A stretch of DNA of 64,000 nt from Altererythrobacter ishigakiensis (GTDB taxonomy: Bacteria; Pseudomonadota; Alphaproteobacteria; Sphingomonadales; Sphingomonadaceae): the NCBI RefSeq assembly GCF_001663155.1, contig NZ_CP015963.1, positions 1-64,000 on the forward strand, read 5' to 3'. Below the pieces are notes generated by a model. It worked only from the letters and a program-made list of their open reading frames with translations. It searched no databases and had not been told where the DNA came from. Both the position numbers and the translations under genes were made by a program. This document shows positions 4,992-46,268 of this stretch, in pieces (position 1 is the stretch's first letter; every line of letters starts with the position of its first letter).

Positions 4992-7514
4992 TCAGAAGTT
5001 GTAACCTACCTCGACCCCGAAGCGGCGCAGGCCTCCGGGCGAATTGAACGAGCCGCCGAACTCAATCGCCGGAATCACCTCGTTCAAATACTCACGATTG
5101 AGTAGGTTGTCCGCAAAGGCTGTAATATTCCAGTTCTCTCCTTCGATACCAATGCGCAGATCCAGCACACCAAACGCTTCGCGCTCTGTGATGGAATAAT
5201 CGGCATCGCCAACAAATGCTGGAAGCTGGAGAGCGGAAATCGGCAGCAGTCCGCTGAATAGCGTCGGGCTGGTATCGTCCTGCACGGTATGGAACCAGGT
5301 CGGGCCAGTGATCCGATAGTCAGCGCGCATCACCAGATCGAGGCTGTTATTAAGCGGCGTATCGATCTGCGTACCGAGGTTGATGGTATAGTCGGCTGTG
5401 TATGGAGATTTATTCCCAACGGTCACAGGACGCGACGCATTCTCCTTGATTTCGCTTTCGGTGACATTGACTGAACCGAAAAGGTCCCATCCATCAATGA
5501 TCTCAAAGTTCAGGTTGGCTTCGGCACCGTAGATTTCGACTTCGTCTATGTTCGAGACCACACGCAGCAGGCCAAAACCGCCAACGAAGAATTCGAAGAA
5601 CTGCATATCATCGACAGTAGTGTGATAGCCTGCCAGATCGAAAGTAACACGACCGTCAGCTACCGCCCCTTTCACACCCAGTTCGAAGGCACTGGACGTT
5701 TCCTTGCGGTAGATGTCTTCAATCAGGACGTCGGTGCCAATAAACTGGTTAAAGGCCTGATCGACAATCGCTGCAGATCCCTGATTGTTGAAGCCACCGG
5801 ATTTGAAGCCGACACCCCAGTTAGCATAGGCGTTGATGTCATCGCTCAAAGCGTAGCGCAGCGAGATTTTCGGCTGAAACTGTTTGAACTTGCGCGATTG
5901 ATCAGGGATCGGACCGAATGCCTGACCAGGGTTGATCGGACCTCCGGTAATCGGGTCGGCAATCGCGGGAACCAGATTGTTTACCCGTCGGTCCTCCACG
6001 TCATAGCGGCCAGCGATGCCGATTTCGAACCGGTCACTCACTTCGTAGTCGACCGACGCGAACAGAGCGTACACATCGGTTGAGAAATCATCGTTATACA
6101 GCTGTGTAGTCGGGTTGTCCGAGCCCGGGGCATTGTAAAGGTCGCGACTTATCCCGTTGCCCAAATCTGCGCCCAGGCTGACACCTGTCTCACGGCTGAT
6201 GTTCAGATAATACGCACCGATCTGCCACTGCAGCGGACCGATACCATTGGATGCCAGCCGGATTTCGGCGCTGACATCGGTCTGCTCGCGTAGCTGCAAC
6301 TGTGTGCCATCGCAGGTAGTCGGGCTATACGGACCAAAGGTTGATCCCGTAGCCGGATCGAAAATGAACGGCACAGGCGTTTGCCCAATGAAGCCGGGCT
6401 GATTGACCGGGAAACCTGTCAGCTGCGCTGTCGTCGCAAAACAAAGTCCGGCTACGTCTGCGGCAGTCTGTGTTGGGGCAGGGAACGGGATGAAGCGCGC
6501 AAAGTCTGCAGAAGTGCCATCCGCGCCCAGAATCTGGTCAACATCGCTATAGAGCGCCCAGGCAGTCAACGTAACGCTATCGAACTCATGCTCGATCTTC
6601 GCGGAGACTTCGAACGACTGCTGCTCGTTGAACGAAGCAATGTTCGAATAGTAGTTGAAAGGGTGATCGTTCACGTCCTCGAAGAACGCCGGATTCACCC
6701 CTGCGAAATTGGGGAGATGGAAGGCTGCATTGAAGTTGATCGCATTTCCCGTGAGATCCGCATATCGCGCTTTGACATCAAGCTCCGTCGCCGGTGACAG
6801 TTCAGCTACAATTCGCCCATCAACCGACCAGATCTCCTGAGAATCTACCGTATTCGCGTTCTGAAATTCGTCACGATAGAAACCGTCGGTAGTATAGTAG
6901 CTACCCGAAAAAACGAGGCCCACACCTTCACCCAGAGGTGTCGAGACATAGGCGCTGGCTGAATAGGTGTTATCTTCAGCGGCGCTGGCTTTTATACCAC
7001 CTGCCAAGAAGTCACCGGGCTTCAAGGTCTGGATCACAACGGCACCGGCCGCGGCATTGCGACCATAAAGCGCGCCTTGTGGGCCCTTGAGGATTTCAAT
7101 CTGGCGTAGCGTGCCCTGATCCTGATTAAGCTGCGCGGTGTTGGTCTTGAGGATACCGTCCACCACCAGCGCGACAGAACTTTCCGCATCGCGGGCGCCG
7201 TTGATGCCGCGAATATTGATCTGAGTGTCGCCCGCTTCGGCCGTGCCAGTAACGATTGTCACGCCTGGGGTCAGTTGAACAAACTCGTCTGCTTTCTGGA
7301 TGCCTGTCTTCTCCAACGCATCAGCAGTAAAGACTGTGATTGCGGTAGGGACTTCGGCCAGAGTTTCAGACTGGCGGCGCGCAGTGACTATGATGGCGTT
7401 GCCTTCCCCTGCGGCCTCCATGCTGTTTGGAGCGTCCTGAGCAATAGCCGGGTTTGCTGCAACCATAACCCCCAGAGCAATGCCCGATGCAAGTGTGCCT
7501 TTGAAGTTCCTCAT
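4992..7514 (-). CDS. TonB-dependent outer-membrane receptor
   Basis: 840 aa active transporter of the outer membrane. The signal peptide ends near AIAQ (about 26). A TonB-box-like IIVTARRQ is followed by the plug domain with IEILKGPQGALYGRNAAAG near residue 143. A long beta-barrel follows, ending in the typical aromatic terminus VGYNF. The ATG at 7514 has an AGGGAG ribosome site. It is divergent from a GntR regulator with a palindromic operator between them, and opposite a hydantoinase/CoA operon carrying the same operator. It therefore probably imports the substrate of that operon, and is likely repressed by the regulator until the ligand appears. The substrate is unknown. Confidence 0.93.
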   Translation of the reverse strand: MRNFKGTLASGIALGVMVAANPAIAQDAPNSMEAAGEGNAIIVTARRQSETLAEVPTAITVFTADALEKTGIQKADEFVQLTPGVTIVTGTAEAGDTQINIRGINGARDAESSVALVVDGILKTNTAQLNQDQGTLRQIEILKGPQGALYGRNAAAGAVVIQTLKPGDFLAGGIKASAAEDNTYSASAYVSTPLGEGVGLVFSGSYYTTDGFYRDEFQNANTVDSQEIWSVDGRIVAELSPATELDVKARYADLTGNAINFNAAFHLPNFAGVNPAFFEDVNDHPFNYYSNIASFNEQQSFEVSAKIEHEFDSVTLTAWALYSDVDQILGADGTSADFARFIPFPAPTQTAADVAGLCFATTAQLTGFPVNQPGFIGQTPVPFIFDPATGSTFGPYSPTTCDGTQLQLREQTDVSAEIRLASNGIGPLQWQIGAYYLNISRETGVSLGADLGNGISRDLYNAPGSDNPTTQLYNDDFSTDVYALFASVDYEVSDRFEIGIAGRYDVEDRRVNNLVPAIADPITGGPINPGQAFGPIPDQSRKFKQFQPKISLRYALSDDINAYANWGVGFKSGGFNNQGSAAIVDQAFNQFIGTDVLIEDIYRKETSSAFELGVKGAVADGRVTFDLAGYHTTVDDMQFFEFFVGGFGLLRVVSNIDEVEIYGAEANLNFEIIDGWDLFGSVNVTESEIKENASRPVTVGNKSPYTADYTINLGTQIDTPLNNSLDLVMRADYRITGPTWFHTVQDDTSPTLFSGLLPISALQLPAFVGDADYSITEREAFGVLDLRIGIEGENWNITAFADNLLNREYLNEVIPAIEFGGSFNSPGGLRRFGVEVGYNF

Positions 7515-37442: not shown

Positions 37443-38306
37443 TTAGTGGTGTTCACCATCGTGATGGTGATTGCCGCCCTCCGGACCTTCACCAATGGCC
37501 CAGGTGACATGCGTGACTACCAGTGCGCCATCCATCTCGCGAACGAAAACGTTGGGACGACCATCGCCATCGTAGTCGGTCGGGCGCCCCCAGTCCTTCG
37601 GGGTATTTCCCAGACCAAACTTCTTTCCCTTGCCGCCGCCTTTGCCGCCGCCATTGCCTCCGCCCTTTCCAGGCTTTCCACCACCGCCACCATCACCGGT
37701 GTCTCCGCCTTCACTATGCGCATAGATCAGTGCCAACTGTTCATAGTCATGCGCATCTGGGCCTTCATTGCCCGCCGGCTGGCTGGTATACTCCATGCAG
37801 GACGTCGTCACATCCGTGCTGAAATTCTCGTTCTGGTGACCCAGCCCATAGTCGTGGCCGATCTCCTGACAGGTGACCAGCTGGCGCCAAGTATCGTTAT
37901 TGTACCGATCCTGATTGAAATAATAATCATTCAGCAGCGTTGCCCCGCCGGTGATATGCCCGCTGGAGATAGTTATGCGGGCAAGACCAAGCCACCCAAC
38001 AGAACCGTAGTCATCATTGCAGACATTGATCTCATCGCGAACGATAGCACAAGCAGGATCCGCATTGCCGCGAACCAGCGGCGCTTCAATATATGGTGAG
38101 ACGTTCCAATCAGCCACCGCAATCCCGGTGTGATTGCGCAGGGCCCAAATGCCGGTGGTGTTGTCAATTACGGGAACGGTGATCTCGTTGCTGGTCCGCA
38201 CCCAGTGATATGTGCTCCAGGAATGGTTCGCGAGCACCGGTGCCGCCAGAACCGCCGAAATGCTCAGCCCCACTGATGCTGCTGCCAGTTTTTTGCCCAA
38301 TTTCAT
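37443..38306 (-). CDS. Secreted metzincin-like protein with QExxHxxGxxH (copy 2)
   Basis: 287 aa from ATG 38306 (MKLGKKLAAAS); a longer frame upstream adds a basic segment and spoils the signal peptide. The mature start NHSWSTYHWVRT nearly matches copy 1. Motif CQEIGHDYGLGH lies at 146-157 and a Met-turn SCMEY at 169-173, again with Gln in the first ligand place. CNDDYGSVGWLGLA is shared with copy 1. A Gly/Lys-rich linker leads to the same DWG...DGRPNV and THVTWAIGEGP domain and a short His-rich tail. Tandem duplicates with 198 bp between; each has its own terminator, so they may be expressed separately. Confidence 0.7.
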   Translation of the reverse strand: MKLGKKLAAASVGLSISAVLAAPVLANHSWSTYHWVRTSNEITVPVIDNTTGIWALRNHTGIAVADWNVSPYIEAPLVRGNADPACAIVRDEINVCNDDYGSVGWLGLARITISSGHITGGATLLNDYYFNQDRYNNDTWRQLVTCQEIGHDYGLGHQNENFSTDVTTSCMEYTSQPAGNEGPDAHDYEQLALIYAHSEGGDTGDGGGGGKPGKGGGNGGGKGGGKGKKFGLGNTPKDWGRPTDYDGDGRPNVFVREMDGALVVTHVTWAIGEGPEGGNHHHDGEHH

Positions 38307-38417
38307 AATCCGTTTGCCCCTTGCTGGAATACGCCAAACCCGCGCCGGGAAAGTCTTGGCGCGCAAAGGGGTAATGACAGCCTAACCGCTGTGCTTATCA
38401 GGCAATGCTAATTGGAT

Positions 38418-39482
38418 TTAACCATCTGCCTCTTTTTCCTGCATCAGATCATGTTTCTTGATGCAGTGGCGCAGCTGATCATAAGTCAGGCCCAGCGCCT
38501 TGGCCGTCTGGCGCTGGTTCCAGCGATGTTTACCCAGAGCATGCTCTACGATTGAGCGCTCATGCGCATCCACCGCAGCGCGCAGATCATCCACATTCTC
38601 AAGCTCGGTGGCCAAAGCTGCTTTGTGCGCAGTTTCTGTGCCCGTAGGTTTTGGTTCCGCCTTTGTTGTGTGCGCGGCTGGCTTGCGATGCGCAGGGGTA
38701 AAGGGCTTCCATGGGCTGTCGAACGGATCGAACTGGACATGCGCGATCGGCTCGTCCCAATTGTCCCAACGGTAAACCGCGCGCTCAACCACATTGCGCA
38801 GCTCGCGGACATTGCCCGGCCATGCATATTCATCAAGCTGGCGCCGCACGTGATCAGCAAATCCAGGCCAGCCTTCCCAATGCAGTTCAGCGGCCATCCG
38901 TCTTCCAAAGTAATCTGCCAAGACATCCACGTCACCGTCGCGAACCCGCAGCGGCGGTAAGGTGATAACTTCAAAGCTCAAGCGATCGAGCAAGTCAGCG
39001 CGAAACTCGCCTTGCTCGGCAAGCGCAGGCAGATCATCGTTGGTCGCTGCGACAATTCGTACATCAACGCGGATCGGACGCGAAGAACCGATGCGGGTGA
39101 CTTCGCCATACTCAACTGCGCGCAGCAGCCGTTCTTGTGCACCCATCGATAGAGTGCCCAGTTCGTCGAGAAATAGCGTGCCTTTGTCGGCTTCTTCAAA
39201 CCTTCCTGTGCGCGCTTTGGTAGCACCGGTAAATGCTCCAGCTTCGTGGCCAAACAATTCGGCTTCGATCAGCGTTTCAGGCAGGGCCGCACAATTCATA
39301 GTCACCAGCGGCTCTCCCCAACGCGGAGATAGGCGGTGAAGGCGCTCGGCGATTAATTCCTTGCCAGTTCCGCGCTCGCCAATGACGAGGACAGGACGAT
39401 CCATGGGCGCGGCTCTAGAAGCTCGCTCAACGGCGTCCAGAAAGGCCCCGGACTGGCCAATAAATTGATTCTCACGCTCCAT
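38418..39482 (-). CDS. pspF: Phage shock protein operon activator PspF (sigma-54 enhancer-binding protein)
   Basis: 354 aa AAA+ activator with no N-terminal receiver domain, as in enterobacterial PspF. Walker A GERGTGKEL lies near residue 34. The sigma-54 contact loop GAFTGA is in FGHEAGAFTGATKAR near 75, and the Walker B region in GTLFLDELG near 95. The C-terminal Fis-type helix-turn-helix is near 312-350 (RWNQRQTAKALGLTYDQLRH). ATG 39482 gives MERENQFIGQSG. It is divergent from the psp operon across a sigma-54 promoter, the classic arrangement. Confidence 0.95.
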   Translation of the reverse strand: MERENQFIGQSGAFLDAVERASRAAPMDRPVLVIGERGTGKELIAERLHRLSPRWGEPLVTMNCAALPETLIEAELFGHEAGAFTGATKARTGRFEEADKGTLFLDELGTLSMGAQERLLRAVEYGEVTRIGSSRPIRVDVRIVAATNDDLPALAEQGEFRADLLDRLSFEVITLPPLRVRDGDVDVLADYFGRRMAAELHWEGWPGFADHVRRQLDEYAWPGNVRELRNVVERAVYRWDNWDEPIAHVQFDPFDSPWKPFTPAHRKPAAHTTKAEPKPTGTETAHKAALATELENVDDLRAAVDAHERSIVEHALGKHRWNQRQTAKALGLTYDQLRHCIKKHDLMQEKEADG

Positions 39483-39505
39483 TACCCAACCTGTAGGAAA
39501 AAACA

Positions 39506-39540
39506 CCAACTGTTGGCAAGAGAAACCAATCGGTCTCTTG
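39506..39540. promoter_or_regulatory. Candidate PspF upstream activating sites
   Basis: Two dyads lie 44-78 bp upstream of the -24 element: CCAACTGTTGG (39506-39516) and CAAGAGA / TCTCTTG (39517-39523 and 39534-39540, 10-base spacer). Position and symmetry fit an enhancer for a dimeric Fis-type helix-turn-helix. There is no consensus for this lineage to compare with. Confidence 0.55.
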
Positions 39541-39583
39541 GCCGAAAATTCCATACCATTGTTTTAGAAGCATTTTTTAAGTT

Positions 39584-39598
39584 TGGCACACCACTTGC
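39584..39598 (+). promoter_or_regulatory. Sigma-54 promoter of the psp operon
   Basis: TGGCAC at 39584-39589, five bases (ACCAC), then TTGC at 39595-39598. This is an exact match to the -24/-12 consensus TGGCAC-N5-TTGC. Transcription would start near 39610, ahead of the 52-residue reading frame at 39634. Confidence 0.93.
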
Positions 39599-39633
39599 AG
39601 ATTCCTAAGCATACCGCAAGGGAGTTTAGAAAA

Positions 39634-39792
39634 ATGTTCAATCGCGAATTCATCCAGAGCAAGCTTGGCAAGGCTTCAGTTGCCAGCGTCGCTGCGATGG
39701 CTTTGTTCGTCGCGCTTAGCACGCAGATGCAGATCGCGCCCGCCGTTGCCGCCACACCGATGGCGAGCGGTGTGCTGGTCGAGATGGCATGA
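39634..39792 (+). CDS. Small membrane/secreted peptide heading the psp operon
   Basis: 52 aa starting ATG 39634 with GGGAG about 12 bases upstream. The first 20 residues are basic and polar, followed by one hydrophobic stretch VASVAAMALFVALSTQM, then APAVAATPMASG, which looks like a signal-peptidase region. It is the first gene after the sigma-54 promoter, so it should be stress-induced together with PspA. Its stop overlaps the next start in ATGA. I recognise no family; coding is supported by position, start signals and the overlap. Confidence 0.6.
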   Translation: MFNREFIQSKLGKASVASVAAMALFVALSTQMQIAPAVAATPMASGVLVEMA

Positions 39793-40724
39793 CCAAGCCT
39801 GACAAAAATAACCCCTTTGGACCGGAGAGCTCAGTCCCCCCCGCGAGCAAGTCCGAAGGCGCGCACTCCAGTCCGCGCGCCACGCCTCCGGTCCAACCCC
39901 TTTCCCCCGAGCGCCCCAAGAAGCGCTCGCGGCTCGATGCAGAAATCGAACGCCTGCGCCAGAGCCCGACTCCCACTCAATCAAATGGGCGTTCGAATGA
40001 AGAAGAGAATTTTTTCAACGGAGTAGCCTTTATGGGGATTTTCAGTCGGACCCGCGACATCATCGCCGCCAACTTCAATGACATGCTCGATAAGGCCGAT
40101 GATCCGGCCAAGATGATCCGCATGATCATCCTCGAGATGGAAGAAACCCTGGTGGAAGTACGCGCCAGCGCGGCGCGTACCATCGCGGACCAAAAGGAAA
40201 TGCACCGCCACGTCGTGAAGCTCGACCGGCTGCAGGCTGACTGGGGCGAGAAAGCACAGTTGGCGCTGAGCAAGGATCGCGAAGATCTTGCTCGTGCAGC
40301 TCTGGTCGAGAAGAAAAAGGCCTCTGACATGGCCGACCAGCTCAAGCAGGAGATAGGCGTACTGGACGATGCGCTTCGTGCCTACGAGGAAGACATCCAG
40401 AAACTGCAGCATCGCCTGCGTGAGGCACGTAGCCGCCAGACCGCGATCGCAGCACGCCTCGAAAGTGCCGAGAACCGCGTCAAGCTCCGCACGCTGATGA
40501 GCACTGAGCGTACGGACGAAGCGCTGTCACGCTTCGACCAACTGGAACGCCGCGTTGATTACGCCGAAGGCCGCGCGGAAGCATTGAGCATTGCCGATCA
40601 GACCGGCGGGCCGAGCCTGTCAGACGAAATCGCCGCACTCGAAGGCGCTGATGCAATCGACGATGAACTTGAGCAGATGAAGAAAGCGCTGGGCAAAGAT
40701 GGCGCCGACAAGAAAGGGGACTAA
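39789..40724 (+). CDS. pspA: PspA with alternative N-terminally extended form
   Basis: The canonical 230-aa PspA starts at ATG 40032 (MGIFSRTRDIIAANFNDML), with GGAG 8 bases before it. It has the usual amphipathic N-terminal helix and long coiled coil of a PspA/IM30/ESCRT-III-like membrane-repair protein. The same frame is open back to ATG 39789, which overlaps the upstream stop (ATGA) and would add 81 residues, Pro/Ser/Lys-rich and probably disordered. Coordinates here cover the extended form. PspA binds and inhibits PspF and coats stressed inner membrane. Which start is used is unknown; both may be. Confidence 0.9.
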   Translation: MTKPDKNNPFGPESSVPPASKSEGAHSSPRATPPVQPLSPERPKKRSRLDAEIERLRQSPTPTQSNGRSNEEENFFNGVAFMGIFSRTRDIIAANFNDMLDKADDPAKMIRMIILEMEETLVEVRASAARTIADQKEMHRHVVKLDRLQADWGEKAQLALSKDREDLARAALVEKKKASDMADQLKQEIGVLDDALRAYEEDIQKLQHRLREARSRQTAIAARLESAENRVKLRTLMSTERTDEALSRFDQLERRVDYAEGRAEALSIADQTGGPSLSDEIAALEGADAIDDELEQMKKALGKDGADKKGD

Positions 40725-40727
40725 GTC

Positions 40728-41027
40728 GTGGATCCGGAATTTGTAGTTATACCGTTACTTTTTATTGGCCTGCCGTGGTTGGTCCTCCATTACATTACCA
40801 AATGGAAGACTGCCGCGACCATCACAACCGATGATGAAGTTCTGCTGGATGAACTCTATCAGCTGGCAAAGCGGCTGGATGACCGAATGGATACGGTCGA
40901 GCGCCTAGTTGCCAGCGACAACCCTGAATTCCAGCCCAAGCGCATCCAGGCCGATCTGGAACAGGATAATCAGCAGTTGCGCGAGCTCGACCGCCTGATT
41001 GCCGACAAGAAAGGAACCGCACAGTGA
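40728..41027 (+). CDS. pspB: PspB-like envelope stress membrane protein
   Basis: 99 aa from GTG 40728, with AGGGGA upstream. One N-terminal membrane helix (VVIPLLFIGLPWLVLHYI) is followed by a coiled coil carrying LAKRLDDRMDTVERLVASDNPEF, the core PspB motif. PspB with PspC senses membrane stress and releases PspF from PspA. It is longer than enterobacterial PspB (about 75 aa) by a charged C-terminal helix. Its stop overlaps the pspC start (GTGA). Confidence 0.88.
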   Translation: MDPEFVVIPLLFIGLPWLVLHYITKWKTAATITTDDEVLLDELYQLAKRLDDRMDTVERLVASDNPEFQPKRIQADLEQDNQQLRELDRLIADKKGTAQ

Positions 41028-41401
41028 ATAGCCCCCGCACCACGCTTTACCGCGATAAGCACAATGCCAAATTGATGGGTGTTTGCGCTGGGATCGCTGA
41101 CTACACTGGTGTCAACGCGCTGTGGGTTCGTCTGGGTTTCTTGATCCTGCTGTTCACTGTCGCGCCAATCTTGCTACCGGCTTATTTCGTCGCGGGTCTC
41201 TTGCTCAGCAAGAAGCCGCCGCATCTCTATGTCGACAAGGAAGAGCAGCAGTATTGGCAGCGCGTTCGCCAAAGCCCGAAGCGTACCGCCCGCGAAATCC
41301 GTGCGCGCTTCCGCGACGTCGATCGCCGGTTGGCAGCCGTTGAGCATCACTACGTGAGCAGCAATCCGCGGCTGACCGCAGAGATCGAGCGCCTGCGCTA
41401 A
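41024..41401 (+). CDS. pspC: PspC-domain envelope stress protein
   Basis: 125 aa from GTG 41024. The PspC domain is seen in LYRDKHNAKLMGVCAGIADYTGVNALWVRLGF, followed by a hydrophobic helix LILLFTVAPILLPAYFVAGLLL. The C-terminal helix RRLAAVEHHYVSSNPRLTAEIERLR has the same shape as the PspB-type motif in its neighbours. It follows pspB with a 4-base overlap and is partner to it in stress sensing. Confidence 0.9.
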   Translation: MNSPRTTLYRDKHNAKLMGVCAGIADYTGVNALWVRLGFLILLFTVAPILLPAYFVAGLLLSKKPPHLYVDKEEQQYWQRVRQSPKRTAREIRARFRDVDRRLAAVEHHYVSSNPRLTAEIERLR

Positions 41402-41431
41402 GGACGAGCACGCCAGACAGGGGAGGGAAAT

Positions 41432-41746
41432 TTGCCCGGTGAACTAATTCCGATAATTGCGATCATTTTCGGATGTACCATCCCGATGGTCGCAATCTGG
41501 TCCAAGCACAAACAGAAGATCGCTGAAATGGAGATCAGTGCGACTGCTGAGCATACTGCAGAAAAAGCGGCGCAGTATGCGAGCCAGGTTCAGCGCCTCG
41601 AAGATCGCGTTCAGGTGCTCGAGCGCATCGTCACTGACAAGGGATATGATGTAGCCACGCAAATAGAAGCGCTTCGCGACACGCGCGCAGTAGAACACCC
41701 CGACAGAGGTGTACCTATCGACATGGCAAGCAAGGAGCGCACATAA
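41432..41746 (+). CDS. PspB-motif small membrane protein 1
   Basis: 104 aa from TTG 41432; GGGGAGGG stands 5-6 bases before it and makes this rare start likely. One N-terminal membrane helix (LIPIIAIIFGCTIPMVAIWS) precedes a coiled coil with RLEDRVQVLERIVTDKGYD and IEALRD. That motif matches the PspB core and the genes before and after. It overlaps the next start by one base. No family beyond PspB-like was recognised; function inferred from operon and motif only. Confidence 0.75.
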   Translation: MPGELIPIIAIIFGCTIPMVAIWSKHKQKIAEMEISATAEHTAEKAAQYASQVQRLEDRVQVLERIVTDKGYDVATQIEALRDTRAVEHPDRGVPIDMASKERT

Positions 41747-42066
41747 TGTTTCCATTAACCGAGACAGCTATCATCGTTGGCGTCGCAATCATAACAGGCG
41801 GCTGGATAGTGAACAGCTGGATGCGAATGAAGATGGGCTATCCGCTGGAAAACAGCTGGGGCAAAGCGATCTACCCGAAGAACGATGGCGAGGCTGTCGA
41901 ACGGGTGAAATTGCTAAGCCAGGAAAATGCGCAACTGCGCGCAGAGCTCGGTTCAATGAAAGACCGGCTTGCCAACGTCGAGCGTATTGTGACCGACAGT
42001 GGATATCAGTTGACCCATGAGATTGACCGCCTGCGTCAAGAAACGACCGAAAAGGACGTAAACTGA
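41746..42066 (+). CDS. PspB-motif small membrane protein 2
   Basis: 106 aa from ATG 41746 (one-base overlap with the previous gene). A hydrophobic N-terminal helix (TAIIVGVAIITGGWIV) is followed by a loop MRMKMGYPLENSWGKAIYP not seen in the neighbours. A C-terminal coiled coil carries MKDRLANVERIVTDSGYQ and EIDRLR. It resembles the other PspB-motif proteins closely in this last part. Function unknown; probably an envelope-stress partner of PspB/PspC. Confidence 0.75.
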   Translation: MFPLTETAIIVGVAIITGGWIVNSWMRMKMGYPLENSWGKAIYPKNDGEAVERVKLLSQENAQLRAELGSMKDRLANVERIVTDSGYQLTHEIDRLRQETTEKDVN

Positions 42067-42392
42067 TGGATTGGGACCTGATCACCATATTTGGCTTCGT
42101 ACTGATAGTTTGCATGATCGTGTTCCCCTTCGCTGCTCGTTCGCATCGCCGAGCTATCGAACATGAAGAGCGCAAGTTGGAATTGCTAGCTCGCGCTGAA
42201 GAAGCGAAAGCCGGCAAGACAAGCAGTGACCAAGCAGAATACCGCAAGCTTGAGGAGCGTGTCCGCGTGCTTGAACGTATAGCAACTGACGGCAAGCAGG
42301 ATCTCGCGCTTCAAATTGAGCAGCTGCGAGACTTGCAGGAGATCGACGACCTAGCCACTGCGCGAGCCAACCAGCAGGAGGCGGCACGATGA
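42066..42392 (+). CDS. PspB-motif small membrane protein 3
   Basis: 108 aa from ATG 42066, sharing one base with the previous stop (TGATG). The membrane helix ITIFGFVLIVCMIVFPFA is followed by a charged stalk (EHEERKLELLARAEEAKAG) and then KLEERVRVLERIATDGKQD plus QIEQLRDL. The last motif is the best match to PspB of the extra copies. It overlaps the next gene by four bases (ATGA). Function unknown apart from context. Confidence 0.75.
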   Translation: MDWDLITIFGFVLIVCMIVFPFAARSHRRAIEHEERKLELLARAEEAKAGKTSSDQAEYRKLEERVRVLERIATDGKQDLALQIEQLRDLQEIDDLATARANQQEAAR

Positions 42393-42649
42393 GTTTCTGG
42401 ACTGCCATTGTGCTGATTGTTCTCATTGGCTCAATTGCAAGCGTTTTGCGCTCGCGAAATCATAGGCGAGTTGAAGATCAGTCAACCAATGGCAACGCTA
42501 CTCGCGACGAAGAGGCGCAGAGGGAGCTGCAAGAGCTCCGCGAGCGTGTGAAGGTGCTCGAACGGATTACAGTCGATGGCCGCGAAGCGCGCGCCATCGC
42601 GGACGAGATTGAAAGCTTGCGCGGCAAGCCGAATAAACAGGACGGCTAA
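42389..42649 (+). CDS. PspB-motif small membrane protein 4
   Basis: 86 aa from ATG 42389, ATGA overlap with the previous gene. Hydrophobic helix TAIVLIVLIGSIASVL, a polar spacer, then LQELRERVKVLERITVDGREA and IADEIESLRGK. The length is close to enterobacterial PspB. Tight coupling to its neighbours suggests that the products are made in fixed ratio. Confidence 0.75.
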   Translation: MSFWTAIVLIVLIGSIASVLRSRNHRRVEDQSTNGNATRDEEAQRELQELRERVKVLERITVDGREARAIADEIESLRGKPNKQDG

Positions 42650-42670
42650 GGCCGCAGGTTCACGGAGGAC

Positions 42671-42913
42671 ATGAGGGAAATGTTTGAACCAACTATGATC
42701 ATCGCTGCGGCATCGCTAGTGGGCCTGTGTATAGTTGCATTTGCCCTGCTAAAGGCATGGCACAGCTGGTTGGCGCTTAAACAGCGCGAGCTCGAAAGTT
42801 CTTCTGGCGAGATTGAAGGCGGCGTAGGCAATAGTGCGGCCCGGATTGAGATTGCCGACCTGAAGGAGCGCATCAAGAAGCTGGAAGCCATCGCAAGCGG
42901 GGTGGATTTGTGA
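42671..42913 (+). CDS. PspB-motif small membrane protein 5
   Basis: 80 aa from ATG 42671; a second ATG at 42680 is possible, as both lie close to a GGAGG/GAGGG run. One membrane helix (MIIAAASLVGLCIVAFALLKAW) precedes a shortened motif, IADLKERIKKLEAIASGVDL, which lacks the usual trailing IExLR part. It is the last of the run and 22 bp after the previous gene. Truncated form of the same module. Confidence 0.65.
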   Translation: MREMFEPTMIIAAASLVGLCIVAFALLKAWHSWLALKQRELESSSGEIEGGVGNSAARIEIADLKERIKKLEAIASGVDL

Positions 42914-42938
42914 GCCAAAGCGCTTAAGTGCGCAATCT

Positions 42939-43346
42939 ATGAGACCGCTTGACGATATCTACGAAGAATATGAATTCCTTGAAGGCGACGAACGTTACCG
43001 CCTTCTGATCGAGCTGGGCCGCGAGCTGGAACCGATGCCTGACGCGCTTAAAACCGATGCGACCTTGGTGCGCGGTTGTTCCGCCAGCGTATGGGTCTAT
43101 CCCACCGACCGCGAAGGTAAACTACACTTCATGGCAGACAGCAATGCGGCGATCACCAAGGGGATCGTGGCTCTGGTCATTTCTGCAGTCCAAGACAAGC
43201 CGGCCAGCGAAGTAGCGCAATTGGATATTGCCGCAGCACTCGTGCCGTTTGACCTCAAGAACCAGCTGTCCTCCAATCGTACACAAGGTGTGCCAAACAT
43301 GATCGCATTGGTGCGCGAGCACGCCGCACGGCTCGCCAATGCCTGA
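42939..43346 (+). CDS. sufE: Iron-sulfur assembly sulfur acceptor SufE
   Basis: 135 aa. FLEGDERYRLLIELGRELEPMPDALKTDATLVRGCSASVWV is the family core; the RGCxSxVW motif contains the active Cys near residue 47. It takes sulfur from SufS cysteine desulfurase. Start ATG 42939. It follows the psp run by 25 bp but has no matching motif, so it is likely a separate unit or readthrough partner. Confidence 0.94.
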   Translation: MRPLDDIYEEYEFLEGDERYRLLIELGRELEPMPDALKTDATLVRGCSASVWVYPTDREGKLHFMADSNAAITKGIVALVISAVQDKPASEVAQLDIAAALVPFDLKNQLSSNRTQGVPNMIALVREHAARLANA

Positions 43347-43360
43347 TCGGGCGATCTGAC

Positions 43361-43708
43361 ATGCGCCCGCTTTATGCTGCGGGAGGGATAATCGCGACCG
43401 GCCTCGCTGCGATTGGCGCATTCTTGCCAATCATGCCTACAGTACCTTTCTTGCTGATCGCGGTGTTCTGCTTTGCCCGCAGCAATCCCGCCTGGGAGCA
43501 AAAGATACTGGATCATCCACATTGGGGCCCGCAGGTCCGTGATTGGCGAGAACGACGCGCGATCAACCGTCGCGCCAAGATTATGGCTGTGGGAGCATTG
43601 AGCGTGGGAGTGGGCTTCACCTGGCTCACATTGGGCACCCCTTGGGTCTTCTTGTCGCTTGCCATACTGGCAATCGGCGGCACGTGGATCTGGACTCGCA
43701 ATGAGTAA
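43361..43708 (+). CDS. YbaN/DUF454 family inner-membrane protein
   Basis: 115 aa. The DUF454 signature is visible: GIIATGLAAIGAFLPIMPTVPFLLIAVFCFARSNP near the N-terminus, then HPHWGPQVRDW and the C-terminal helices. Three or four hydrophobic segments. The function is unknown. It begins 14 bp after sufE, and its stop lies inside the bciA start region (8-base overlap). Confidence 0.88.
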   Translation: MRPLYAAGGIIATGLAAIGAFLPIMPTVPFLLIAVFCFARSNPAWEQKILDHPHWGPQVRDWRERRAINRRAKIMAVGALSVGVGFTWLTLGTPWVFLSLAILAIGGTWIWTRNE

Positions 43709-44603
43709 ACGCGTTGTTCTGTTCGGTGCCAGCGGCACGATAGGGAGAGCTGTAGGAAAAGAGCTGCGACTGGGCGGCCTCGACTTTGTTTGTGTCCTGC
43801 GAAGCTCCAGCAAAATGCCGGAGGATCTCGCTGAATACAGCGTCAAGCCTGACGCCCTTGCGGATGTATTTGAGCGCGAGGAATTCGATGTCGCGATCTC
43901 CTGCATGGCATCGCGCACCGGTACGCCAGAAGACGCCTGGAGGGTGGACTACCAAGCAAACAGCGACATACTGAAGGCTGCACAAACAAGCGGCGTAAAA
44001 CATTTCATACTGTTGTCTGCAATCTGTGTGCAAAAGCCCAAACTGGCATTTCAACACGCCAAGCTCGCGTTCGAGAAGGAGCTGATCGAAAGCGGTCTCA
44101 CGTACTCCATTGTACGCCCCACGGCTTTCTTCAAATCGCTGTCTGGTCAGATCGCACGCGTGAGATCAGGCAATCCCTATCTGCTGTTCGGCAATGGCGA
44201 GCTAACGCGTTGCAAGCCGATCAGTGATCGCGATCTGGCCCGCTTTGTCGTGGGCTGTATCAATGACCCGGAGCGCCGCAACCGCATCCTGCCTGTCGGT
44301 GGGCCGGGCCCTGCGATCACGCCTCTGCAGCAGGGTGAGGACTTGTTCCGGTTGACGGGACAAGAACCGCGCTATCGCCGCGTGCCCATTGCGCTGATGA
44401 ATGTAATCATCGGTGCGCTCAGCCTTGCGGGCCTCGCATCAAAGCGCGCGGCCGCAAAGGCTGAATATGCCAAGATCGGTCGTTATTACGCGACGGAGAG
44501 CATGCTGGTTTGGGACGAGAAAACCGGACGGTATGACGAAGCGGCGACACCCGAATTCGGCACGGACACCTTATTCGAACACTACCGGAAAAAGCTTGGC
44601 TAG
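43701..44603 (+). CDS. bciA: Divinyl chlorophyllide a 8-vinyl-reductase (BciA-type)
   Basis: 300 aa from ATG 43701. The Rossmann start VVLFGASGTIGRAVG is followed by the BciA/DVR hallmarks VRPTAFFKSLSGQ near residue 150 and LFGNGELTRCKPISDRDLA near 173. BciA reduces the 8-vinyl group during bacteriochlorophyll synthesis with NADPH. No other bch, puf or puh gene lies in the window, so a photosynthesis role would depend on genes elsewhere; a related epimerase or reductase role cannot be ruled out. It starts inside the ybaN end. Confidence 0.82.
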   Translation: MSKRVVLFGASGTIGRAVGKELRLGGLDFVCVLRSSSKMPEDLAEYSVKPDALADVFEREEFDVAISCMASRTGTPEDAWRVDYQANSDILKAAQTSGVKHFILLSAICVQKPKLAFQHAKLAFEKELIESGLTYSIVRPTAFFKSLSGQIARVRSGNPYLLFGNGELTRCKPISDRDLARFVVGCINDPERRNRILPVGGPGPAITPLQQGEDLFRLTGQEPRYRRVPIALMNVIIGALSLAGLASKRAAAKAEYAKIGRYYATESMLVWDEKTGRYDEAATPEFGTDTLFEHYRKKLG

Positions 44604-44605
44604 AC

Positions 44606-45106
44606 TTAACTCAAATCTGCTTCACGCACCTTCGCAATGCCCGCCTTGCGCTGTTCTTTCAGCTCAGCCTTGAGCTTCACCGGATCACGCGCGAAAACAA
44701 AGCCGAAGCTGACCCCACCTTCCTTGCCGATTGTGGCGTGGTGTAGTTTGTGTGCCTGCACAAGCCGTTTGGCATAGCCTTTCTTAGGCACCCAGCGGAA
44801 ATAACGTTGATGCACGAGCCCGTCGTGAACCAGTGTGTAGATCACGCCATAAAGCGTGATTCCCAGCGCAAACCACCATAGCGCATCCGAATAGAGCGCA
44901 CCGTAAATATACATCGCGGCATTGATCGTGCCGAAGACGACAGCGAACAGGTCATTCTTTTCCAGGGTATTGTCATGCGGCTCATGATGGTCACGATGCC
45001 ACTCCCAGCCCCAGCCGTGCATGATGTATTTGTGGGCATACCAGGCAAAGAATTCCATGCCGAGCAGCGCGGCCAAAACGATTGCGATGATTTCCCACCA
45101 GCTCAT
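44606..45106 (-). CDS. crtZ: Beta-carotene hydroxylase CrtZ
   Basis: 166 aa. The His-rich iron motifs of CrtZ are clear: HKYIMHGWGWEWHRDHHEPH near residue 25 and YTLVHDGLVHQRYF near 93, then HKLHHATIG. With CrtW it makes astaxanthin-type carotenoids by adding 3-hydroxyls to beta-ionone rings. The start overlaps the crtW end (ATGA-type). ATG 45106 is the family start. Confidence 0.94.
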   Translation of the reverse strand: MSWWEIIAIVLAALLGMEFFAWYAHKYIMHGWGWEWHRDHHEPHDNTLEKNDLFAVVFGTINAAMYIYGALYSDALWWFALGITLYGVIYTLVHDGLVHQRYFRWVPKKGYAKRLVQAHKLHHATIGKEGGVSFGFVFARDPVKLKAELKEQRKAGIAKVREADLS

Positions 45107-45837
45107 GCGGCTACTCCTGCACGCCGCGCGCCAGGCAATGCCCACCAGGGCACATCAGGACGGCGGTGATGTTCTAGATGATAGCCGAAATGGAAACAGC
45201 TGGCGAGGCTTGCCAGCGTGCTGAAATTGTCAGAGCGCGCATTGTGCCCGTCAGCGAACGACTCACCCAAATGACGATGCGGACGATAGGTGCCAAAGTA
45301 AAACAGCTGCAGAGATGACAGCAAAGCAGGCGCTCCATAAAGCAGGAATATCTGCATGAACGGGATGCCAAAAACGAAAAGATAAATGCCCACTACCATG
45401 TGGACGTAAAGTAAGGACTGCCAGCCGAAATACCGCTTGAAGAAGGTCCAGTACCATGCCCAGAAGTGCGTCGGATTAGCTGTGTCGAAATCAGGATCCC
45501 CATCTTTCCCGGTATGCTTGTGATGCGCGAAATGCGCGTCGCGTATCTTTCTCCACGCAAAGCCTGCATAGAGGAACAACAGGATTGCACCGAGTGCGGA
45601 ATTAACTCTTTGCCAGCCGGGCGCGAGGGAACCATGCATCGCGTCATGGCATACGATGAAGACACCCACTGAGAGCCAGCATTGCAGCGTAGCCATCAGC
45701 AGGACCTGCGGCCAAGCTTGCCAGCTCAGCTCAAAAACGAACATCGCGTAGAAATGAATGCCCAGCCACGACCCTGCGATCAACGCCGCCAGCACAAGAC
45801 CGAGGAGGCGTTGTGAATTTCGGGAAGGAAGTTTCAT
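45103..45837 (-). CDS. crtW: Beta-carotene ketolase CrtW
   Basis: 244 aa membrane di-iron enzyme that adds 4-keto groups. The three His clusters are HDAMHGSLAPG near residue 65, HHKHTGKDGDPDF near 105 and HLEHHRRPDVPWW near 222. ATG 45837 (MKLPSRNS) is used rather than a start at 45870 that lies within the thioesterase gene's 3' end region. It overlaps crtZ by four bases, so the two are one transcript. Confidence 0.94.
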   Translation of the reverse strand: MKLPSRNSQRLLGLVLAALIAGSWLGIHFYAMFVFELSWQAWPQVLLMATLQCWLSVGVFIVCHDAMHGSLAPGWQRVNSALGAILLFLYAGFAWRKIRDAHFAHHKHTGKDGDPDFDTANPTHFWAWYWTFFKRYFGWQSLLYVHMVVGIYLFVFGIPFMQIFLLYGAPALLSSLQLFYFGTYRPHRHLGESFADGHNARSDNFSTLASLASCFHFGYHLEHHRRPDVPWWALPGARRAGVAA

Positions 45838-45869
45838 GGGATGCGACACGGTGGACGCCCTATAGGGCA

Positions 45870-46268
45870 TTAGCCCTCAGGAAAAAAGAACTCGCGCAAA
45901 TGCTCGCCAATCTTTGCCGGGCGCAAAGTCTGCGCGTCGATGCAGCACCAGCTGGATTGCACCTCAGCCAGCACTTCTTCACCGCGGCTGATGACTGTTT
46001 TGTAGAACGCGCGCGCGCCCTGAAAATGCTCAAGCACGGTTTGCGCAATTACATCATCTTCAAGGAATGCAGGCTTGCGATAGGTAATCTCATGCTTCAG
46101 CGCGACCCATGCCTTGCTCGCCACATCTTCTGCCGGGGCAAGCTTTTGCCAGTGCGCCAGAACCGCGTCCTGTACCCAATTCAAGTATCGCGCATTGTTC
46201 ACGTGCCCCATGAAATCGATATCTTCAGGAAGGACTTTGATCGGAAAGGCAAAAGGCGTTGCTGACAT
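45870..46268 (-). CDS. Acyl-CoA thioesterase (4-hydroxybenzoyl-CoA/YbgC-like hotdog)
   Basis: 132 aa. The hotdog active-site segment LPEDIDFMGHVNNARYLNWVQD contains the Asp used by 4HBT/YbgC/FadM thioesterases. The later strands end normally. Substrate unknown. It lies upstream of crtW on the same strand, 32 bp away, and may share its transcript. Confidence 0.87.
   Translation of the reverse strand: MSATPFAFPIKVLPEDIDFMGHVNNARYLNWVQDAVLAHWQKLAPAEDVASKAWVALKHEITYRKPAFLEDDVIAQTVLEHFQGARAFYKTVISRGEEVLAEVQSSWCCIDAQTLRPAKIGEHLREFFFPEG

Follow-up and report, generated by a model that had tools for sequence, protein, structure and literature searches.

The psp operon analysed here encodes five extra small membrane proteins downstream of pspC, and computation revealed that four of them form a family related to the C-terminus of PspC, conserved and kept in order across the sampled psp loci of the Sphingomonadaceae, with recombination between head and tail, and accompanied by an N-terminal extension of PspA and an internal ribosome site. 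The five proteins are labelled here Q, R, S, T and U. Judged from sequence, the tail of Q-T corresponds to the region of PspC that binds PspA in Escherichia coli and Yersinia. The reading that we tentatively favour, at slightly short of an even chance, is that Q-T would present PspA-docking modules of the PspC type to the cytoplasm from several membrane anchors.

Operon layout and the family of extra proteins

The window, that is, the whole stretch of DNA analysed, is taken from a 2.67-Mb genome in one contig, of which it covers bases 1-64000. From 5′ to 3′, the genes follow one another as a small unnamed gene, pspA, pspB, pspC, Q, R, S, T, U, a sufE-like gene and a DUF454 gene, and a gene for a pspF-like sigma-54 activator lies opposite this row (features are on the + strand unless stated). 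The sigma-54-type promoter site TGGCACACCACTTGCA (39584..39599), which precedes the row, is an exact match, and the window has no other such match; when one mismatch was tolerated, four sites were found against 3.3 expected. In 44 of 81 loci, the window included, a similar site lies no further than 1200 bases from pspA on its upstream side. The small first gene (39637..39792) encodes 51 aa with one hydrophobic segment, and its stop overlaps the long start of pspA (ATGA); relatives at E<0.1 are present in 45 of the 81 loci, again counting the window, and a Pfam search gave no match.

PspB (40728..41027) and PspC (41024..41401) pass the curated models, with 88.9 bits against the TIGR02976 cut-off of 51.7 and 129.6 bits against the TIGR02978 cut-off of 104. 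They are followed by Q (41432..41746, 104 aa), R (41746..42066, 106 aa), S (42066..42392, 108 aa), T (42389..42649, 86 aa) and U (42671..42913, 80 aa), which completes the seven open reading frames described by an earlier, sequence-only reading of this DNA, all of them at the positions it gave. That reading rightly noted that most junctions overlap by 1-4 bases: four of the six do (pspB/pspC and S/T by 4, Q/R and R/S by 1), and the other two are gaps of 30 (pspC-Q) and 21 bases (T-U). Rfam gave nothing at gathering level in 38300-43600, and sigma-70 sites and terminators in 38300-43800 were rarer than in shuffles. Nearby, an open reading frame on the - strand (37443-38366) has no Pfam match at E<=0.01; its product contains EIGHDYGLGHQ, which we take to be similar to zinc-protease motifs, and is rich in glycine in its C-terminal part. 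At 44606-45870 (- strand), a gene of the fatty-acid hydroxylase family adjoins one of the fatty-acid desaturase family.

The sequence-only reading had all seven proteins ending in one common pattern. Both halves of it, the zipper LxxRhxxhERI and the tail IExLR, are indeed present in PspC, Q, R, S and T, whereas PspB and U carry the zipper alone. The pattern is terminal in PspC, where zero residues follow the tail PRLTAEIERLR (41366-41398, within pspC), but not in Q-T, where 8-22 residues follow. The membrane helix said to precede it was recovered as a single N-terminal hydrophobic segment in each of the five extra proteins. There are 0-1 K/R ahead of this segment and 2-5 behind it, and from hydropathy and K/R count the tail should be cytoplasmic; one N-terminal membrane helix and a cytoplasmic coil, as in PspB, are thus predicted for all five. 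Among 22 Q-T members, mean identity is 18% in the heads and 54% in the tails.

Searched against the whole genome at E<=1, the Q-T profile found only six places: Q (E 2e-25), R (8e-26), S (7e-26), T (3e-20), U (4e-4) and the C-terminus of PspC. There are no dispersed paralogues at this threshold. A second PspC-domain match elsewhere in the genome (G000:C1:1214378-1214551) consists of the domain only (model 6-64 of 121), without the C-terminal half. In profile comparisons, Q-T reached probabilities of 98.6-99.5 with one another; on trimmed alignments they reached 70-95% with PspC (95% in R; reversed profiles 2-7%) and 91% (Q), 92% (R), 78% (T) and 53% (S) with PspB, and reversed profiles stayed at 1-7 over both comparisons. 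Reversed profiles were beaten in all eight pairs of Q-T with PspC and PspB, and so were column-shuffled tails in 8/8 tests of 40 shuffles each, narrowly for S against PspB (23.5 versus 23.3). The coiled-coil control FtsB, a one-helix protein, was likewise beaten in raw score in the eight comparisons, modestly by S and T against PspB (28.0 and 31.1 versus 23.4 and 26.7). FtsB itself scores 9-45% against Q-T, which indicates that the likeness is in part generic, T being the most affected. Together, the three controls rule out a generic coiled coil as the whole explanation of Q-T, an objection that the sequence-only reading had raised against itself. Homology to the C-terminal half of PspC was found for Q-T and not for U. 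The latter is linked to S and T at 94, has no profile match to PspB or PspC, and its likeness to them as a generic coiled coil is not rejected.

None of the five proteins reaches the curated PspC cut-offs, and the PspC domain PF04024 has no match in them at E<=1. Solved structures yielded nothing for PspC at E<=1 and only generic coiled coils and channels for the Q profile; a match of PspB to RbcX is a chance match only. The anti-phage models of PADLOC-DB match neither the five extra proteins nor the small first gene, and a weak match of PspA to LmuB there (E 2e-4 and 7e-4) is probably generic coiled coil. Of 3940 relatives of Q, 120 were listed, and any source name among these is 'hypothetical protein'. 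Among the named genomes listed, those closest to U are Altererythrobacter and Erythrobacter, with 92% identity in the MAG Altererythrobacter sp. XM-24bin4. AOL22920.1, which a survey of 2024 gives as its example of PspB duplicates, presumably comes from an Erythrobacter.

Distribution, duplication and recombination

Eighty psp loci were retrieved with PspC as the sole criterion and without regard to the extra genes, 74 from Sphingomonadaceae and 6 from other families of Sphingomonadales. With the window included, 75/75 Sphingomonadaceae loci carry at least one Q-U-type gene (range 1-8; four or five in 47), and the absence from related operons that would have spoken against the set was not observed. 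In the other families, one of the six loci has such a gene. U is the last gene in 69 of the 75 loci, and of the 262 pairs of adjacent genes, 143 overlap or lie no more than 5 bases apart. A further 80 named loci, selected via U and therefore uninformative on how common the set is, hold 3-9 Q-U-type genes each, with U last in 80/80 and T-U closing the row in 78/80. Some genomes are present in both the named and the unnamed set, which leaves duplicates among the 108 extended rows and 23 chimeras mentioned below.

The profile search in Sphingomonadales that the sequence-only reading had proposed gave Q-T matches in 84 of 99 whole genomes: 2-8 per Sphingomonadaceae genome, PspC and U possibly among them, and 1-3 elsewhere in the order where there are any. 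Across the Alphaproteobacteria, 13 of 241 genomes match, namely four Sphingomonadaceae, one other strong match (E 9e-16) and eight weak ones (E 1e-7 to 5e-4), and U occurs in 3 of 192 genomes, all three Sphingomonadaceae. Relatives outside the Sphingomonadaceae resemble T (8 loci). In L161-L168 the T-like genes, alone or in pairs, lie around position 5000 of each locus; they come from other Sphingomonadales families and one neighbouring alphaproteobacterial group; among 10 open reading frames scanned in four of the loci outside the Sphingomonadaceae, no psp gene was near them. Taken jointly with the docking reading, and with the same probability of a little under one half, Q-U would be a lineage-specific expansion.

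The repeated duplication suggested by the sequence-only reading is borne out in that a duplicated family, which bears marks of both duplication and head/tail recombination, stands beside PspA. When 75 Q-T proteins of 16 loci were placed in one tree with four T-like ones from outside the Sphingomonadaceae, the tree required 7 changes of type label against a shuffled mean of 44, which indicates that the types are old; the tree rests on few columns and leaves many forks open. Ten within-locus pairs are at least 55% identical. By strict vote, 23 of 654 proteins, a few genomes counted twice, combine the head of one type with the tail of another (152 of 806 proteins could not be split and were left out). 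The clearest chimera is the Q gene after pspC in a near relative (L032, the same genome as L169), which has a Q head and an S tail, and the DNA switch falls inside the motif. From these comparisons, tandem copies seem to have been gained, lost and recombined through the repeated motif. What is repeated, though, is not a stress-sensing module, as had been proposed, but the cytoplasmic zipper and tail, which in PspC make up the PspA-binding region and not a sensing part.

The N-terminal extension of PspA

The reading frame of pspA (39789..40724, 311 aa) opens 81 codons upstream of the usual start. Its product passes TIGR02977 (PspA, ESCRT-III superfamily) with 277.8 bits against 242.95 over residues 82-301, and where the source gives a name it is phage shock protein A, nothing more. 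Neither this extension nor the small first gene figured in the sequence-only reading. When a matrix of PspC tails was run over the 210 window open reading frames of at least 100 aa, PspC scored 30.1, the PspA frame came second with 25.0, and T (18.2), R (16.3), S (9.5) and an unrelated frame (8.5) followed; 14 of 160 PspC tails fall outside the tail pattern used for the matrix, and Q is not singled out by it (median 1.1 over 104 Q proteins). The match in PspA is SRLDAEIERLR (39927..39959), which coincides with a predicted helix at residues 48-58. Of 73 PspA extensions, 52 scored above every shuffle with the same matrix. The extension motif, an EIExLR helix, is present in 40 of the 72 Sphingomonadaceae loci with a recognised PspA start (3 of 81 loci have none) and in 69 of 74 named loci. 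The remaining 32/72 have no extension, and the extension is therefore not needed for the extra genes.

Over 68 distinct blocks of the extension motif, the mean differences at codon positions 1, 2 and 3 are 0.24, 0.15 and 0.55, the pattern expected of coding sequence. Directly before the usual PspA start there is a GGAG (the two together at 40020..40034, the ATG at 40032). In 107 of 108 extended rows, GGA is the glycine codon that forms this GGAG, and the core uses GGA for 46 of its 640 glycine codons, a bias that fits an internal Shine-Dalgarno or ribosome site under selection and hence two forms of PspA. On this codon usage, PspA is probably made in both the usual and the long form. An ATGA-coupled upstream gene is found at the long start in 45 of 108 rows by a strict rule. 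AlphaFold2 (overall pLDDT 71, pTM 0.45, 35 sequences) predicted the extension to be disordered except for helix 48-58, with a mean pLDDT of 53-65 there and 36-43 in the other extension blocks up to residue 80.

Possible roles and comparison with known systems

In the docking reading, the extra proteins would be small one-helix membrane proteins bearing copies of a PspC-type docking module, in which a turn, mostly V/A-T-D, connects a short zipper helix (LxxRhxVLERI) to a short tail helix (LxxEIExLR). Because the module is kept while the Q-T head varies, one pool of PspA could join or leave several membrane partners. U, with a zipper and no tail, may pair with other extra proteins, which is a guess. 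The long PspA would be a subunit whose disordered N-terminal extension bears the tail helix, and part of the PspA pool would thus bring its own competitor for the same sites. Support comes from work on PspC: its C-terminal domain binds PspA in the on state (PMC5596341), the E. coli PspC zipper is needed for the interaction with PspA (PMC3068692), and this interaction is lost on mutation at Yersinia PspC V125, as is signalling with the matching E. coli V105D (PMC6003685). Counted from the C-terminal end, E. coli V105 (in ERYVTSD) and V111 of the window's PspC are both 14 residues away, and the equivalent valine of Q and R lies in ERIVTD. Counting against docking, two of the four proteins are without this critical valine, which is alanine in S (turn ATD) and threonine in T (turn TVD), 8-22 residues follow the tail in Q-T, and U is tailless.

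The likeness of Q to PspB is similarly strong, so that a PspB-like role is as easy to argue. In the main rival to docking, which we consider somewhat unlikely, the extra proteins would be divergent PspB duplicates whose cytoplasmic coils pair with the C-terminus of PspC and keep it silent, the expansion tuning this silencing. Q, R, S and T all share profile likeness with PspB, and the Pfam PspB model has matches at E<0.01 in 15 of 50 Q members, the best at 4e-6; a survey of 2024 calls such genes PspB duplicates (PMC11237479), and the title of one paper states that cytoplasmic PspB-PspC contacts silence the response. Against this, Q-T have the IExLR tail of PspC, which PspB does not, S and T exceed the FtsB control against PspB only modestly, and all five fall below the PspB cut-offs (best 17.4, in Q, against 25.6 for PF06667, and 25.3, in T, against 51.7 for TIGR02976).

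It is also conceivable, but unlikely, that the tails of PspC, Q-T and the long PspA imitate the N-terminal part of PspA helix alpha5, a contact known as Interface 3 in Vipp1 that contributes to keeping the ESCRT-III-like polymer assembled. If so, membrane proteins would offer PspA polymers this very helix and thereby cap, seed or recruit them, and assembly would be tuned by many anchored copies and by a self-tagged PspA made from a second start codon. The start of alpha5 has a pattern like the LxxE[IF]xxL of the tails, and there Nostoc Vipp1 has, by alignment, L193, F197 and L200 (LxxxFxxL); these residues are at Interface 3, and the double change F197K/L200K severely inhibited assembly (PMC8281802). 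With a matrix of 39 distinct PspC tails (L249-L299), the alpha5 start had a median rank of 2.5 among about 215 windows in 50 PspAs and ranked first in 12 of them, which none of 200 column-shuffled matrices equalled. Conversely, with a matrix of 35 alpha5 starts the PspC tail came out on top in 29 of 50 diverse PspCs and in 76 of 78 from sphingomonads. Speaking against imitation, a sphingomonad-only alpha5 matrix left PspC and Q-T outside the ten best of 317 open reading frames, absolute scores of the alpha5 matrix are low and do not separate the proteins (PspC 1.8, PspB 2.5, U 0.8, PspA extension 0.2 bits), and about 1% of shuffled alpha5 matrices score as well on sphingomonad PspC. Residue pairing between PspA and PspC (n=50; F/F 25, F/I 12, I/I 5, I/L 3, F/L 2, L/F 1, L/I 1, I/F 1) is uneven and ignores kinship. 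A match between the PspA extension and the C-terminal helix of Vipp1 was not significant. It is because the matrix tests are mixed that the imitation of alpha5 is given so low a probability.

The sequence-only reading had itself proposed a graded or multi-input sensor around PspA; spelled out, every head would detect its own membrane state and pass the signal to PspA. The heads differ while the tails are kept, and the order of types is conserved, but the sensing part is not among the parts recognised, the diversity of heads equally fits different partners or drift, and none of the analyses run shows such sensing, so that we regard this sensor as improbable. Least probable of all is that the extra proteins form a structural scaffold of coiled coils in the membrane and do not touch PspA, which fits the zipper helix of all extra proteins and the single T-like genes away from psp in other Sphingomonadales families, but not the location of the genes within the psp operon in 75/75 sampled Sphingomonadaceae loci or the resemblance of the tail to the PspA-binding region of PspC. 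In the docking reading, a putative docking tail copied onto several anchors and onto PspA offers few residues to test and a natural series of 1-9 copies; it touches on how the stress signal passes from PspC to PspA and how a bacterial ESCRT-III-like polymer starts and stops at a damaged membrane.

The presence of 'PspB duplicates in the operon' was already noted by the 2024 survey (PMC11237479). Relative to these, the tail logic, the head/tail recombination and the dual-start PspA appear to be new, no report of them having been found among the titles and abstract openings listed from the open-licence literature; the accessible parts of PMC9239133, PMC9241875 and PMC5443232 make no mention of such a gene set. 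In the parts available, the 'N-terminal extension' of PMC12358876 and PMC13051332 is helix alpha0 or its counterparts, that of PMC9239133 is part of Yersinia PspC, and none of them is a stretch before PspA alpha0. The LxxE[IF]xxL of the PspC tails resembles the LxxxFxxL of the alpha5 contact of PspA and Vipp1, Interface 3 (PMC8281802); the likeness lies in few residues and matrix scores are low. With PspB (TIGR02976, PF06667, and the duplicates of PMC11237479), the extra proteins share small size, one N-terminal membrane helix, a cytoplasmic zipper, the same operon and a weak profile likeness that is strongest in Q and R; they differ in that the five stay below all curated cut-offs, Q-T add the IExLR tail and up to 9 copies, of distinct types, stand in order. 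With the C-terminal domain of PspC (TIGR02978), the sole other protein found by the Q-T profile in this genome, they have in common the zipper, turn and IExLR tail in one line, and they differ in having no PspC domain, a single membrane helix, a tail that is not terminal and, in S and T, no valine.
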